Assembly (NCBI RefSeq): GCF_013340305.1
Contig: NZ_BLVP01000001.1
Coordinates: 496,001-560,000, forward strand
Source of the DNA: Desulfovibrio psychrotolerans
GTDB lineage: Bacteria; Desulfobacterota; Desulfovibrionia; Desulfovibrionales; Desulfovibrionaceae
Direction: 5' to 3'
DNA length: 64,000 nt
The stretch's first letter is position 1. Each line of letters opens with the position of its first letter. This document shows positions 49,538 to 54,834 of this stretch, one piece after another. A program made the position numbers and the translations under genes. The notes below the pieces were generated by a model. The model saw nothing but the letters and a program-made list of their open reading frames with translations, did no database searches and was not told the DNA's origin.

Positions 49538-49575
49538 GGGCATCCGGCATAACAAAAGGCCGGTGCCCTGTTTTA
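49538..49575 (+). terminator. Terminator after the 130-residue gene
   Basis: GGGCATCCGGC pairs with GCCGGTGCCC (one bulged base) around a 10-base A-rich loop, then TGTTTTATT. It reaches the end of the convergent murJ gene. Confidence 0.7.
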
Positions 49576-51156
49576 TTGCCGTGTACGCTGTCCTTTCCTG
49601 CGGATAAGGCGCAGCAACGGGTCCAGCAGAGAAGGAGCCGCCACACGCGCCGCAACAGCATACGCAAGGCCGAACACGCCAAAGCTGGCCGCAAGCGACC
49701 AGAACGCTCCCCACAGCGGAGCCTGCGGCATAAACGCAGACACCATATCCGCCACACGCCACGCCCCTATGGCGGCAGGCAGGCAGCACAGCGCAGCAAC
49801 GGCAAAAACACGCGCCACGCCTTCGTACGCCTGTGCTCCGTAGCGCATGCGCCACACTCCCGCCAGCATAATGCTGTACAACACCACAGAAACCGTTCCC
49901 GCAGCGGCCACCCCCAGTGCCCCCCAAAGCCCGGACAGCCACCAGTACAGGGGCAATGCCACAATCGTTGCCACCGTGCCCGTCACCGCCGGGGTAATGG
50001 TATCCTTGCGCGCGTAGAAGGCGCGCCCGGTAAGCTGCTGCACACCCCAGAAGGCCACCGCCACCAGCATGATACGCAGTAAGGGCACTGTTTGGGCGGT
50101 CTGCTCATGCCCGAATCCGCCCTGCTGGAAGATGAGCCGCAGGGTGGGTTCCGCTGCGGCAATCATCCACGCGCTGACAGGAATAATCACCAGCATGGTG
50201 TTACGCATGGCCGAATTCAGGGTCGTGTTCACGCCCTTCTCATCCCCTTTTGCCACCAAAGCTGCCAGAAAAGGAAAGGAAGCCACGCCCGCCGCCTGTG
50301 CAATCACGCCCACAGGCACCTGCATGATGCGCCGGGCGTAGTTCAGCAGGCTAACGGCTCCGTCCCCGGTCAGTGAGCCGAAAATGCGCGCGAACTGCTC
50401 ATCCAGCACCACGATGGACTGCCCGATCATGAGCGGCAGCGCCAGCAGCAGAAAACGGCGCACTCCCGGATGGAAGAACCGCACACGCAGATGCATCCCC
50501 CCCCCGGCGCGCACCGCCAGCAGAGGCAGCAGAAAGCTCCCGGCACCTGCCCCCGCAAGAACCCCCCAGCAGAAACCTTCCATACCGCGGTCTATCATCA
50601 GCAGACCGCCGAGAATGATGCAGGCGTTATACACAAGCGGAGTAAGGGCGGGCACGGCAAACTGACGCCGCATGTACAGAACGCCGGAGAGGCAGGCTCC
50701 CAGCAGAAAGAACACCTGCGCGGGAAGAATGATGCGCAGGAAAAAAGCCAGACGGGCCATAGCCTCGCCACCAAAACCCGGCGCGGCAACAGCGGCAAGC
50801 CCCGGTGCCCCCGCCCAAGCCAGTGCGGTAAGCGCGCCCGCCACCAGAAATACCCAGCACAGAACGGCGGAAAGAAAATTCCACCCCTCCTCCTCGCCCT
50901 TTTCAAAATATTCGGCCAGAAGCGGAATGAGCGTGATGGAAAAATAGCCGCCCGCCAGCAGGTAGTTCAGGAAATCCGGAATGACAAAGGAGGCGAAATA
51001 AATGTCCGACTCCACGGTGGCACCGTGGTAATAGGATATAACCTTGTCGCGGATAAGTCCCATGAAGCGCGAAAGAAACACGCTTGCCGCCATGATGAGG
51101 GCGGCTACCCCCATGCGCTGCCGCCCGGTGACCATGTTACCGAAAAAATTCCCCAT
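49573..51156 (-). CDS. murJ: Lipid II flippase MurJ
   Basis: 527 residues with about fourteen helices of the MOP superfamily. FLSRFMGLIRDKVISYYHG near the N-terminus is the MurJ signature; NTTLNSAMRNTMLVIIPVSAWMI and GRAFYARKDTITP are also typical. It flips lipid-linked peptidoglycan precursor. ATG 51156 is chosen by alignment to family starts; a longer frame to 51258 lacks a ribosome site. Confidence 0.92.
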   Translation of the reverse strand: MGNFFGNMVTGRQRMGVAALIMAASVFLSRFMGLIRDKVISYYHGATVESDIYFASFVIPDFLNYLLAGGYFSITLIPLLAEYFEKGEEEGWNFLSAVLCWVFLVAGALTALAWAGAPGLAAVAAPGFGGEAMARLAFFLRIILPAQVFFLLGACLSGVLYMRRQFAVPALTPLVYNACIILGGLLMIDRGMEGFCWGVLAGAGAGSFLLPLLAVRAGGGMHLRVRFFHPGVRRFLLLALPLMIGQSIVVLDEQFARIFGSLTGDGAVSLLNYARRIMQVPVGVIAQAAGVASFPFLAALVAKGDEKGVNTTLNSAMRNTMLVIIPVSAWMIAAAEPTLRLIFQQGGFGHEQTAQTVPLLRIMLVAVAFWGVQQLTGRAFYARKDTITPAVTGTVATIVALPLYWWLSGLWGALGVAAAGTVSVVLYSIMLAGVWRMRYGAQAYEGVARVFAVAALCCLPAAIGAWRVADMVSAFMPQAPLWGAFWSLAASFGVFGLAYAVAARVAAPSLLDPLLRLIRRKGQRTRQ

Positions 51157-51375
51157 ACGCCCGATGCCTCGTTGTGCGTGAATGCCCTGTTTTCGCGTAC
51201 TGCCTATCCTATCATGCCCCGAAACGCCAGCGCGGGAAAAAGGAGCAGTACTCATCATATGACATTTTCGTGAACAACGCCCGAAAAGTAGTACTGAAAA
51301 GTACGACGCAATCCCCGCATACAGGACGGTAACATTCTGTTTTTCCTGCTATATGACAAATACCACATTTCCTTG

Positions 51376-51404
51376 TTGACACAGCGGAGCAAGATTCATA
51401 TATC
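51376..51404 (+). promoter_or_regulatory. Promoter of the SAM riboswitch transcript
   Basis: TTGACA (51376-51381), a 17-base spacer and TATATC (51399-51404) place a transcript start near 51411, just before the aptamer's first helix. Confidence 0.7.
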
Positions 51405-51410
51405 CACCCC

Positions 51411-51566
51411 TGTCACTACTCATGACGAGGACGCGAGGGAAAGGCCCTTTGACCGTCCGGCAACCTGCCCTGTGGGCAAGGTGCCAAAGCCGACCCGCGC
51501 GTTGCGCGGATCCATGAGGCGATGTCAGCAAACGCATCGACCTTTCGGCATGAGAGGTCTTTTTTT
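51411..51566 (+). ncRNA. SAM-I (S-box) riboswitch with terminator
   Basis: All S-box elements are visible. P1 is CTCATG/CATGAG (51419-51424 with 51513-51518). P2a is GGACG/CGTCC (51429-51433 with 51454-51458), enclosing a GA-flanked kink-turn and a GAGGGAAAGGCCC loop stem. CCGGCAACC is followed by P3 TGCCC/GGGCA (51466-51478), GGTGCCAAA, and P4 CCGCGC/GCGCGG (51495-51509). The core matches the family consensus, which I know from S-box leaders. The expression platform ends in an intrinsic terminator at 51539-51566, so SAM binding should switch transcription off. Confidence 0.88.
51539..51566 (+). terminator. Riboswitch terminator
   Basis: GACCTTTC pairs with GAGAGGTC over eight bp (one G-T) around GGCAT, followed by seven T. 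Its loop and 3' arm contain CATGAG, the same hexamer as the P1 3' strand, so the P1 5' strand could pair alternatively with it as an antiterminator. Confidence 0.8.
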
Positions 51567-51657
51567 GTTGTCGGGTGCCGCATCCGGAGTTGGTACCGGG
51601 AACCATGGTCCCGGAACACGCCGGACGGTGACGTACTGTGCGGACAGGAGAATAACG

Positions 51658-51927
51658 ATGATCAGCTTTCTGGAACGTTGCAAGGCCAGCCCTCAGGGCA
51701 CCATACGCTTTCTGTACCACGACACGGGCAGCGATCCCATGCCTGCGGATGTCAGCGACCCTCTGGCACTGCTGGGAGACATACGGCTGCTGCAACTGAC
51801 AGCTGCCCAGATGGAGACCTTGCGCTCGCTGGTGACGGAAGACCTGCACCGTGAAGGAGCGGAAGAAGTGTGGCGTACCCGCGCCTTCCGCAAGAACGTG
51901 ATCCATTCTTTCGGCATGGTGGTATAA
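51658..51927 (+). CDS. Orphan protein controlled by the SAM riboswitch
   Basis: 89 residues with AGGAG seven bases before ATG 51658. It begins MISFLERCKASPQGTIRFLY, has an acidic middle (DTGSDPMPADVSDPLALLGD) and a helical end (EDLHREGAEEVWRTRAFRKN). No signal, membrane segment or recognisable domain. The frame is open upstream through the riboswitch, but that is chance. It is alone between the riboswitch and its own terminator, so its expression would rise when SAM is low. That places it with methionine or SAM metabolism by regulation, without a known function. Confidence 0.82.
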   Translation: MISFLERCKASPQGTIRFLYHDTGSDPMPADVSDPLALLGDIRLLQLTAAQMETLRSLVTEDLHREGAEEVWRTRAFRKNVIHSFGMVV

Positions 51928-51952
51928 CGCACTCAACCATCCGGAACAGCGT

Positions 51953-51984
51953 AAAAAAAAGCCGGGGCGTTCCCCGGCTTTTTT
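51953..51984. terminator. Bidirectional terminator
   Basis: Eight A, GCCGGGG (51961-51967), loop CGTT, CCCCGGC (51972-51978), then six T. It serves the forward orphan gene and, read in reverse, the HAD gene. Confidence 0.92.
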
Positions 51985-52030
51985 GCTTTCATCAGTGCAT
52001 GGCTATTTGACTCTGGTCCTTACGCGGTTA

Positions 52031-52531
52031 TCAGTCAAACCCCAGCAGGCGCAACGCCTGCGGCAGGTCTGCAAACCGGTGAATCGTCGTATAACGGTCA
52101 CCACTCCGCACATCGGCGGAGCCAAGGTTCAACCACACGGCGCTCATTCCTGCATTCGTCGCGCCCCACACATCCCCCATAAAGTCGTCACCCACCATCA
52201 CCACACGGCCCGGCGCAAGCCCAAGGTCGGCAAGCACATGCCGCCAGAATTCCGGCCAGGGCTTGGGCCGCCCGATGCTGCGATAGGTGTATATCCTGTC
52301 CAGCAGCAGCCCCACGCCCATGCACTCCAGCGATTTCCGTATCTCGCCTTCTTCAGATTCAGACGCATTGGACGCCAGCCCCATGAGCCATGAAGAACGC
52401 AGAAGCTGCAGGGTTTGCGCAGCGCCTTCCACGGGCGGCACCTGAGACCAGCCGCTGCCCGGCCCCAGATAGTAAGGCATGGATTCCATGAGCGTCCCAC
52501 CCCAGTCGAACAAAATGGCCCTGTCTTTCAT
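52031..52531 (-). CDS. HAD-family hydrolase
   Basis: 166 residues. HAD motif I is FDWGGTLM (an FDWGGT variant), motif II LMGLASNASES, motif III Lys in GRPKPWPEFW, and motif IV MVGDDFMGDVWGATNAG. It is a small phosphatase of the Cof/phosphoglycolate-type group; substrate unknown. ATG 52531 is chosen; a longer frame lacks support. Confidence 0.82.
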   Translation of the reverse strand: MKDRAILFDWGGTLMESMPYYLGPGSGWSQVPPVEGAAQTLQLLRSSWLMGLASNASESEEGEIRKSLECMGVGLLLDRIYTYRSIGRPKPWPEFWRHVLADLGLAPGRVVMVGDDFMGDVWGATNAGMSAVWLNLGSADVRSGDRYTTIHRFADLPQALRLLGFD

Positions 52532-52796: not shown

Positions 52797-54353
52797 TCAG
52801 CGGTAGCGGGCGCGTTCGGAGGCGATAAGAGATTCCAGCCCGAATTTCTTTACGCGATACCCCATCTGGCGGGGGGTAAGACCCAGTTCATCTGCGGCTT
52901 TATACTGAATCCAGCCCACACGTTTCAGGGCGTTAATGACCTCTGTGCGCTCAATATCTCTGAGCGAATGATGGGGGCTTGCACCATCCGAAAAGCTGCC
53001 CGTATCGCCAGAAGAACCGTTGGACGCCAGCAGCGGCGTAAGCATGTGGGTTTCAATGCGCGAGGTTTCCGCCATAATGACCAGCCGCTCGATAAGGTTC
53101 TCCATCTCGCGCACGTTACCGGGCCAGTCGTAGCGGCGCAGCATGTCCAGCGCGTCGGCTTCAAAGGCAATCTGGCGGCCGTATTCGGTGGCAACCTTCC
53201 CGAGAAAGTGATTGAGAAGCCCCACCACGTCTTCCTTGCGTTCCCGCAGGGCAGGAATGAGGATGGGGAAAACACTCAGGCGATAGAACAAATCCTGCCG
53301 GAACAGGCTCTGTTCCACCAAATCCTCAAGGTCGCGGTTGGTGGCGGCAATAATGCGCACATCTACCCGCCGCGTGAGGTTGCTGCCCAGCCGTTCAAAC
53401 TCGCGGTCCTGAATCACGCGCAGCAGCTTTGCCTGCAACGCAAGAGGCAGCTCGCCTATCTCGTCCAGAAAAATGGTTCCCTTGTTCGCCTCTTCAAACC
53501 GCCCGGCCTTGGAATTCACCGCGCCCGTAAACGCCCCACGCTCATAGCCGAACAGCTCAGATTCCAGAAGATTTTCGGGAATGGAGGCGCAGTTCACCTT
53601 AACAAATGGAAAATTTGCCCGGTCAGAAAGGTCATGAATAACGCGGGCGATAAGCGTTTTGCCCACGCCGGATTCCCCCAGCAGCAACACCGTGGCACGG
53701 GTGGGGGCAACGCGCTCCACCTGCCGTTCCACATCCAGCATGGCGGGACTGCGGGCAACAATGTATGGCCCCTTTATCTCCTTGGAGACGCGGTACCGAA
53801 GAGAAACATTTTCGCGCTTCAGCTCATCCACGCGCTCTTCCACCTGCTCGTTCAGGCTGATGAACTGCGCAATAAGCGTGGCAACAATGGTCAGAAAGCC
53901 CACATCTTCGTCAAAGGACACATCGTCATCAAACAGGCGGTCCACATTAAGCACACCTATGGGGGTGGCATGCAGCAGAATGGGCACTCCGAGAAAGGAA
54001 ACCCTGTCACGCTCCACCTTCCGCGCACCTGTCTTGTCCAGAAAAAGCGGATCATTGTGCACATCGGGCACGATATAAGGGCGGGCAGTCTCAAAGATCA
54101 TGCCGGTTACCCCTTCGCCCAGCCTGTACACCCCGCGCTTCTTCTCTTCAGGCGAAAGCCCGTGCGACGCCGTAATGACCAGCGCCCCGCTGGCGCGGTC
54201 CATAAGCGTTATGGTGGCGCGCTTCATGCTCAGGTTGTCAGATAGAATGGCCAGAATCTCGCCCATGGACTGTTCCAGGTCGAGCGCCTTGTTGATGACA
54301 TTGCTGATGTCTGCAAGGACCTTAATCTTGAGGCTGGCAAGGGTATCGTTCAT
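52797..54353 (-). CDS. Sigma-54-dependent activator, NifA-like
   Basis: 518 residues: an N-terminal GAF domain (about 25-180; GVYRLGEGVTGMIFETARPYIVPD), a sigma-54 AAA+ domain (Walker A LLLGESGVGKTLIA; GAFTGA loop in YERGAFTGAVNS; Walker B TIFLDEIGELP) and a Fis-type HTH ending LGLTPRQMGYRVKKFG. The GAF-AAA-HTH plan and the RQMGYRVKKF helix are as in NifA/VnfA activators. No nif genes are in this window, so its target and effector are unknown; it may act elsewhere. The start is uncertain (ATG 54353). Confidence 0.92.
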   Translation of the reverse strand: MNDTLASLKIKVLADISNVINKALDLEQSMGEILAILSDNLSMKRATITLMDRASGALVITASHGLSPEEKKRGVYRLGEGVTGMIFETARPYIVPDVHNDPLFLDKTGARKVERDRVSFLGVPILLHATPIGVLNVDRLFDDDVSFDEDVGFLTIVATLIAQFISLNEQVEERVDELKRENVSLRYRVSKEIKGPYIVARSPAMLDVERQVERVAPTRATVLLLGESGVGKTLIARVIHDLSDRANFPFVKVNCASIPENLLESELFGYERGAFTGAVNSKAGRFEEANKGTIFLDEIGELPLALQAKLLRVIQDREFERLGSNLTRRVDVRIIAATNRDLEDLVEQSLFRQDLFYRLSVFPILIPALRERKEDVVGLLNHFLGKVATEYGRQIAFEADALDMLRRYDWPGNVREMENLIERLVIMAETSRIETHMLTPLLASNGSSGDTGSFSDGASPHHSLRDIERTEVINALKRVGWIQYKAADELGLTPRQMGYRVKKFGLESLIASERARYR

Positions 54354-54834
54354 ACACCGCATCAAGCAAAGCCGATGCCGAAACTGCACACTGCACCCTT
54401 TTTTCTTTTATCCGATATGGTATCAGCCACTTAGCAAACCTTCAAAAAAGTGGGGACGAGACCGTTCACCGGAAACAGGGATATTGAAAAACAAATTTGT
54501 CATTTCAAAATTTTCTATTTTTACAATTTTGGCATTAACAACATAAATCAGAGCGGCAATCCTCCTGTCGTCCCGTACTATCCGTTGCACATCCACGGCG
54601 ATATCCCCCAAACGAGGGGTTCCGGCGATCTGAAACAGGCAAAATTGTAGGATGGGCAGTGCGGATTACGCTCCCCACCCCTTTCAACATCCATTTTTGT
54701 GTTTACAAAATTGTTATTTGACATCTCTGTAAAACGATGCGGCCCTGCGCACCCGTCTCCGGCATGTTGCCGCAGCTACGAATGCGGCAGGGCCGCTTGC
54801 ATATGTTCCGCGCTAAAAAACGGATGGGAAAATG
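54354..54834. other. AT-rich gap with cruciform-like hairpin
   Basis: The ~480-base region is much more AT-rich than its surroundings (around 54470-54560 and 54690-54730). It holds an outer 10-bp inverted repeat GCGGCCCTGC/GCAGGGCCGC (54739-54796) enclosing CGGCA/TGCCG (54760-54772), probably the terminator of the SPFH-NfeD unit. No gene is seen. Confidence 0.5.

Follow-up and report, generated by a model that had tools for sequence, protein, structure and literature searches.

The SAM-I leader and its gene

In Desulfovibrio psychrotolerans, a lone orphan gene of 89 codons is preceded by a complete S-adenosylmethionine (SAM) riboswitch of the SAM-I (S-box) class. The locus lies in a stretch of 64,000 nucleotides (nt), here called the window (RefSeq assembly GCF_013340305.1, contig NZ_BLVP01000001.1, positions 496,001 to 560,000), and all positions given below are those of the window. 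In a cmscan search with 4227 Rfam families, RF00162 (SAM-I) was the sole match above the gathering score in the whole window, and its alignment spans the full model (1-108), with the junction helices and the conserved core included. The gene has homologues in related genomes, and in 34 of the 35 leaders a second element resembling SAM-II is located between the SAM-I terminator and the gene; the leader in the window is the lone exception. The features of the locus are as follows.

51376-51404, + strand: sigma-70-type promoter, TTGACA (51376-51381), 17 nt, TATATC (51399-51404); 10 of 12 consensus letters by hand count
51417-51520, + strand: SAM-I (S-box) aptamer, RF00162 with 74.2 bits (gathering score 44.4) and E 1.5e-15
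51512-51548, + strand: predicted antiterminator hairpin, using the 3' strand of P1 (ViennaRNA fold of 51508-51552)
51539-51566, + strand: intrinsic terminator of the SAM-I platform, hairpin 51539-51559 followed by a T tract
51567-51643, + strand: part of the leader in which 34 of the 35 homologues have the SAM-II-like element and the window has none
51646-51650, + strand: Shine-Dalgarno (SD) sequence AGGAG, 7 nt before the ATG
51658-51927, + strand: orphan gene of 89 codons, one of 35 full-length homologues
51961-51984, + strand: terminator of the orphan gene, hairpin stretch of -21.1 kcal/mol and T tract

An earlier reading made from the sequence only had described, for 51411-51984, a complete S-box aptamer with a promoter just upstream and a terminator downstream, and had proposed a covariance search. 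That search, now run, confirmed the aptamer, and both other parts were found, the promoter slightly outside the span named. The consensus promoter scanner listed none in 50800-52500; it missed this promoter because it requires a T at the last -10 position. A simple pattern search found TTGAC upstream of the SAM-I core in 29 of the 35 homologue leaders. By prediction, antiterminator and terminator are mutually exclusive hairpins and P1 competes with the antiterminator, which would be the usual S-box arrangement. On hand-cut stretches ViennaRNA gave -12.8 kcal/mol for the antiterminator and -11.5 kcal/mol for the terminator stretch; with an automatic cut the same script gave -11.4 and -15.9 kcal/mol, respectively.

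The homologues were collected in two rounds. A search of 99 relatives gave 13 genomes with the gene, the window's own included, and a profile (A1) built from these 13 matched 37 of the 288 genomes of the family, of which 35 remained after the exclusion of two partial matches. A wider profile (A5, 30 sequences) was run on 348 genomes of the order with the best 15 candidates per genome scored, and returned the same 35 together with one of the two excluded. The two weak matches, with E 2e-4 to 9e-4 and limited to parts of residues 29-77, come from genomes G240 and G246 and were rejected as chance across 288 genomes; they fall inside an RNase R-like protein of 1011-1018 residues (named by eye). 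Full-length homologues are present in 35 of the 348 genomes and belong to three Desulfovibrionaceae genera, in which every genome examined carries the gene: 10 of 10 in the window's genus (g1), 8 of 8 in g38 and 17 of 17 in g8. No other genus of the order yielded it in the A5 search. Beyond the order, an alignment scan of a contig collection gave 10 loci, all Desulfovibrio-type and all identical to loci of the family set over a 490-base stretch from SAM-I onward. A single-sequence scan of the same collection found no relative, which is a failure of sensitivity since the alignment scan gave these 10.

RF00162 was found upstream of the gene and on the same strand in all 35 gene-bearing genomes (the 13 first homologues, 20 further loci, G251 and G256), and it is the best member of the SAM-I clan in the window and in the homologue leaders. 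The sequence-only reading had stated that homologues devoid of such a leader would refute it. There are none among the 35, which supports its suggestion that the gene belongs to the SAM regulon as a new member, putatively regulated by SAM. The SAM-II-like element of the 34 relatives could not be seen from the window alone.

A family-wide search for RF00162 located it in at least 44 of the 288 genomes, at 49 places; the number of genomes is a lower bound because only the best 12 candidates per genome were scored. The 89-codon gene follows at 35 of these places and another orphan, described below, at three. Five further places precede panC with metK downstream (both identified by motif in 5 of 5), four precede metX-metW-metY-like operons, and two, both in one genome, precede a DraG-like gene (names by eye). 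In these counts, which are weighted by the species sampled per genus, no other SAM-I target of the family is as frequent as the 89-codon orphan.

The other SAM-I loci differ in their layout. The window's genome has a second SAM-I aptamer (L095, on G000:C8, core at about 583), and the same type occurs at L092, L093 and L094, giving 4 of the 10 genomes of the window's genus. It precedes a short hydrophobic open reading frame with an SD overlapping the 3' strand of P1 (by eye), followed by the metX-metW-metY-like genes, and is apparently a translational SAM-I riboswitch over a small membrane protein. At L082, L083, L086, L087 and L091, in three other genera, SAM-I and a terminator precede panC and metK, and three of these five loci also have a DUF502-like gene. 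Genome G101 has two near-identical SAM-I leaders (L084 and L085) before an ADP-ribosylglycohydrolase-like gene (by eye), near contig ends, and these possibly mark a mobile or repeated region.

The 89-residue protein

The sequence-only reading had also described a single unrecognised gene with its own terminator, and this description holds. The terminator after the gene is missing from the list of the terminator scanner; its presence makes the gene monocistronic. A four-letter SD pattern lies within 16 nt before the ATG in all 35 homologues. Among 80 homologue pairs of equal length with a rate of synonymous change (dS) of 0.05-2, the ratio of nonsynonymous to synonymous change (dN/dS) had a median of 0.085 and a maximum of 0.25, a pattern that identifies the product as a real protein under strong purifying selection. 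In an alignment of 30 sequences, nine of the 20 invariant positions fall in the last 18 residues, nine in residues 34-56 and two in the other 48; none of the 20 is a Cys or His. The C-terminal tail is highly conserved (W..R..RKN.I.S.G..V). The protein in the window looks soluble from its composition (grand average of hydropathy -0.11), and its fold, predicted from 11 sequences, is all-helical with a mean predicted local distance difference test score of 81.9 and a predicted template modelling score of 0.72. The sequence-only reading had thought of a small regulator or enzyme partner, and with such a fold either would be possible.

The search for known relatives of the protein gave no credible family in Pfam, NCBIfam, PHROGs or PADLOC, and a sequence search of the PDB with the 89-residue family returned nothing credible (best E 0.29). 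Foldseek found no match of the predicted fold at E 0.001 in the PDB or BFVD, and tblastn against plasmid and phage records found none. A match of the window protein to Pfam Med15_N (E 0.092) was dismissed as a chance score, and a match to PADLOC MTase_II in one relative (13 bits, E 0.016) was likewise judged to be chance.

The gene might encode an ordinary small enzyme or binding protein that belongs to methionine metabolism and has diverged too far for current profiles, and thus no new kind of effector; this explanation is compatible with the control proposed below. SAM-I usually precedes methionine-metabolism genes, in this family also the metX and panC-metK operons (names by eye), and comparing profiles has little power when a family has 89 residues and an effective number of sequences of 2.5. 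The missing sequence matches in Pfam, NCBIfam and the PDB, the missing structural matches and the lack of an invariant Cys or His speak against it. We consider this explanation quite possible, at somewhat less than even odds.

The SAM-II-like element of the relatives

The second element consists of a conserved stem, GAUUU...UUGC in the loop, then an A-rich stretch and GCUAA. These parts follow the order of the RF00521/RF01726 consensus (P1, GAUUU, UUGC, A-rich stretch, GCUAA). GAUUU, UUGC and GCUAA are invariant in 28 distinct elements (alignment A3), an invariance that holds by construction because the elements were selected by that motif. The best Rfam score was obtained at L089 with RF00521 (27.6 bits, E 8.1e-5), where RF01726 picks the same place with 15.5 bits (E 0.9); at L018 both models again agree on the place, with 15.9 bits (E 0.75) for RF01726 and 13.6 bits (E 0.5) for RF00521. 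RF00521 scored 20.8, 20.5 and 19.2 bits on the elements of L030, L047 and L015, respectively. When 13 whole genomes were searched, 12 of them with the element, the best RF00521 match fell on it in two (G056 and G046).

The stem P1 is supported by covariation. In the 28 distinct elements 91.3% of the cells are paired and five of the seven pairs show compensatory changes, with P1 having been defined from the same sequences that were tested. The 37 compensatory cells compare with 11.4 (standard deviation (sd) 2.4) in shuffles, none of 500 of which reached the observed number, and structures slid by 1-3 columns gave at most nine. Merely counting the pairs that show a compensatory change discriminates less well: five were observed and 3.8 expected from shuffles, and 51 of 500 shuffles attained the observed count. 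For the pseudoknot pairing P2b, the elements' own loop-tail combinations scored 8.18 compared with 6.92 (sd 0.35) after exchange of tails, a value reached in 1 of 3000 exchanges. The UUGC/GCUAA part of P2 is uninformative on pairing because it is invariant.

A model built from the elements (R1) was used to search the 288 genomes of the family, with the best 17 candidates per genome and stricter filters. It matched 38 genomes, 37 of which are the leaders described here and one a chance match; the 37 are not independent proof because R1 was built from those elements. Within the limits of this search, no credible copy was found without SAM-I in front of it (37 credible places). Genome G207, with a match of 28.2 bits (E 0.003), was considered a possible additional carrier of SAM-II and rejected, since it lacks the GAUUU core.

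Three of the 37 leaders belong to another gene. In genus g14 (L088, L089 and L090 of genomes G022, G266 and G267) the same pair of SAM-I and SAM-II-like element precedes an orphan of 145-149 residues that was found in only these three of the 288 genomes, and hhalign detected no homology between the two orphans. The recurrence of the pair before a non-homologous gene, the core letters and the covarying stem make it probable from sequence that the second element is a divergent SAM-II. We call it SAM-II-like and do not list it as a member of an Rfam family because it does not reach a gathering score.

In the window leader no SAM-II element or remnant was found: the best R1 match scores 2.0 bits and is on the other strand, and the Rfam models gave none with a threshold of E 10. 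In the corresponding part of its leader the window has a hairpin sequence, CCGGGAACCATGGTCCCGG (51596-51614). In one relative, L024, GCUAA is 19 nt from the ATG and the element abuts the SD; only there is a putative second aptamer on the ribosome-binding site anatomically clear. In the other leaders the element is 33-154 nt from the ATG.

Proposed control by two SAM switches

We propose, with a probability of about 0.7, that a small soluble protein is made only at low SAM because two SAM-OFF switches of different types, one after the other, otherwise repress it, and that the window species has kept the first switch only. As in other SAM-I riboswitches, bound SAM would keep P1 closed and free the terminator, and transcription would end ahead of the gene. 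If SAM is absent, the antiterminator would form with the 3' strand of P1 and the mRNA would be completed. In the relatives, the SAM-II-like element would be the second SAM-OFF switch and would most likely control the translation of those mRNAs that the first has not stopped. By parsimony, this second switch would have been lost in the window species while the first was retained.

Since the element lies 33-154 nt before the ATG, direct masking of the SD is not evident outside L024, and an effect over a distance or another platform would be needed. A precedent for SAM-II acting on a distant start is metA of S. meliloti, in which translation from a start 74 nt downstream depends on an SD that is part of the SAM-II riboswitch (PMC9373788). 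Affinities for SAM of about 4 nM for SAM-I and about 1-10 uM for the SAM-II of A. tumefaciens have been reported (PMC1273637). Given how much lower the affinity of this measured SAM-II is, the combination of both switches may set two thresholds or sharpen the OFF response.

The window leader shares with terminator-type SAM-I riboswitches the full aptamer above the cut-off, the antiterminator/terminator pair and the promoter directly upstream; it differs in its target, a lone orphan gene in place of a named methionine or SAM gene. With SAM-II (SAM_alpha, RF00521, or the long-loop form, RF01726) the 34 relatives share P1, the core letters and a probable P2; they differ in scores below the Rfam cut-off and in the host family, Desulfovibrionaceae, and the window has no such element. 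SAM_alpha was seen only in Rhizobiales and Rhodobacterales in a survey of about 200 genomes (PMC4239095), and a few SAM-II in other proteobacteria and Bacteroides have been mentioned (PMC1273637).

Among the closest described arrangements is the bi-mechanism tandem of SAM-II and SAM-V in 'Pelagibacter' (PMC9481103), which likewise combines two unlike SAM aptamers, the first with a terminator and the second nearer to the start codon. Of this layout the window has the first aptamer with its terminator. In contrast to 'Pelagibacter', a SAM-I aptamer comes first here, a SAM-II-like element follows, and both precede an orphan gene. The same paper counts tandem SAM-II/SAM-V, doublet SAM-I and doublet SAM-II, seven cases of SAM-II followed by SAM-I/-IV and two of SAM-I/-IV followed by SAM-II. 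The last two also have a SAM-I-clan aptamer before SAM-II, whereas here RF00162 is the best clan member and the pair occurs in 37 genomes; the two examples may overlap with the 37 leaders. Our searches of the open-licence PMC literature found no RF00162-type SAM-I followed by SAM-II in print, and the parts of PMC9481103 and PMC12452182 available name none. Thus, the SAM-I part adds a new target to a known class, and in the tandem a known kind of arrangement appears in a new combination.

S-boxes were reported in Geobacter and Desulfuromonas and in neither of two Desulfovibrio studied (PMC545781). A single SAM riboswitch upstream of a hypothetical gene, RS11395, was described in Oleidesulfovibrio alaskensis G20 (PMC11124144), also a member of the Desulfovibrionaceae. 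This matches the SAM-I leader before a hypothetical protein found here, with RS11395 likened by its description only; it differs in that the part of the report available mentions no second aptamer. Furthermore, Desulfovibrio vulgaris makes homocysteine by an unusual route involving DUF39, NIL/ferredoxin and COG2122 proteins (PMC5764234).

The genes around the orphan were also inspected. In the window it is located between a divergent murJ (NCBIfam) and a haloacid dehalogenase (HAD) hydrolase, with flanking spans 49573-51258 and 52797-54389, and beyond them lies a NifA-like sigma-54 activator (NifA model 527.7 bits, just under the cut-off of 528.85). The orphan is next to murJ in two further g1 loci and one g38 locus and is elsewhere in two g8 loci (by eye). 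A conserved gene neighbourhood was rejected, since the g8 loci read differ from those of g1 and g38.

Several observations weigh against the proposal of two switches. None of the gene neighbourhoods read contains a methionine-metabolism gene or an operon partner. The automatic antiterminator test, for which 38 leaders were supplied and three skipped, is rough: 23 of 35 leaders were positive, some positions were clearly mispicked, and we rely on its result for the window only. In the relatives scored, no SAM-II match reached the Rfam gathering score (36 bits for RF00521, 44 bits for RF01726). In L008, which belongs to the window's genus, RF00521 scored only 11.4 bits (E 2), and matches of twelve other families score higher there. 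In the other 10 of the 12 element-bearing genomes searched whole, the element is absent among the RF00521 matches listed (E up to 10, best 150 candidates), and all 14 control genomes also gave RF00521 matches at the same loose threshold. Support for P2b is moderate, with letter-shuffled tails reaching the observed score in 55 of 3000 cases. With clades assigned by hand, an element's own P2b tail paired no better than the tails of other clades did on average in six of the eight sequences of one clade, in two of the five of a second clade and in L047, which stands alone. Finally, the SD is outside the element in nearly all leaders, and a translational step is not anatomically obvious.

These scores and the position of the SD, together with a species that does without the element, would also fit a different explanation, namely that SAM-I is the only SAM sensor and that a different sort of conserved pseudoknot (for another ligand, a protein site or an RNA stabiliser) follows it, with a chance resemblance to SAM-II. 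Such a coincidence would have to extend to two independently built Rfam models that pick the same place, to letters in the order of their consensus, to the position of all 37 credible places behind SAM-I and to the recurrence before a non-homologous gene, and we regard it as unlikely. It is very improbable that the main product of the leader is the terminated RNA, a small RNA (sRNA) acting in trans at high SAM with the protein as a side product: SAM-II leaders of S. meliloti do yield the sRNAs RZ, RA1 and RA2 on termination (PMC9373788), but the protein here is under strong purifying selection with an SD pattern in all 35 homologues, and the recognisable conserved parts of the leader are the aptamers.

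Under the proposed control by two SAM-OFF switches, the protein would be a partner or effector of methionine/SAM supply, to judge only from its wiring, and would perhaps act via its conserved C-terminal tail. The wiring, the small soluble fold predicted to be all-helical and the conserved tail suggest an adaptor or inhibitor of a methionine/SAM-supply enzyme. A more general idea, which we offer tentatively and consider doubtful in its full extent, is that sulfate reducers evolved the fixed pair of SAM-I and SAM-II, unrelated RNA folds for the same ligand within a single leader, as an OFF control with two thresholds around effectors specific to each lineage. The 89-residue protein of three genera and the 145-149-residue protein of a fourth would then be functional stand-ins for each other, small non-enzymatic proteins made only at SAM scarcity that bind and redirect a core enzyme of methionine/SAM metabolism, the 89-residue one via its W..R..RKN.I.S.G..V tail.

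With a pair of SAM-type aptamers of unrelated structure, this small gene is a natural experiment on why a cell should monitor the same metabolite twice. The window species has no second switch and thereby provides an internal control. The protein probably serves these bacteria specifically in coping with low SAM. Since the gene is tied without exception to SAM switches in 35 genomes, it provides a direct handle on how SAM supply is adjusted in this group.
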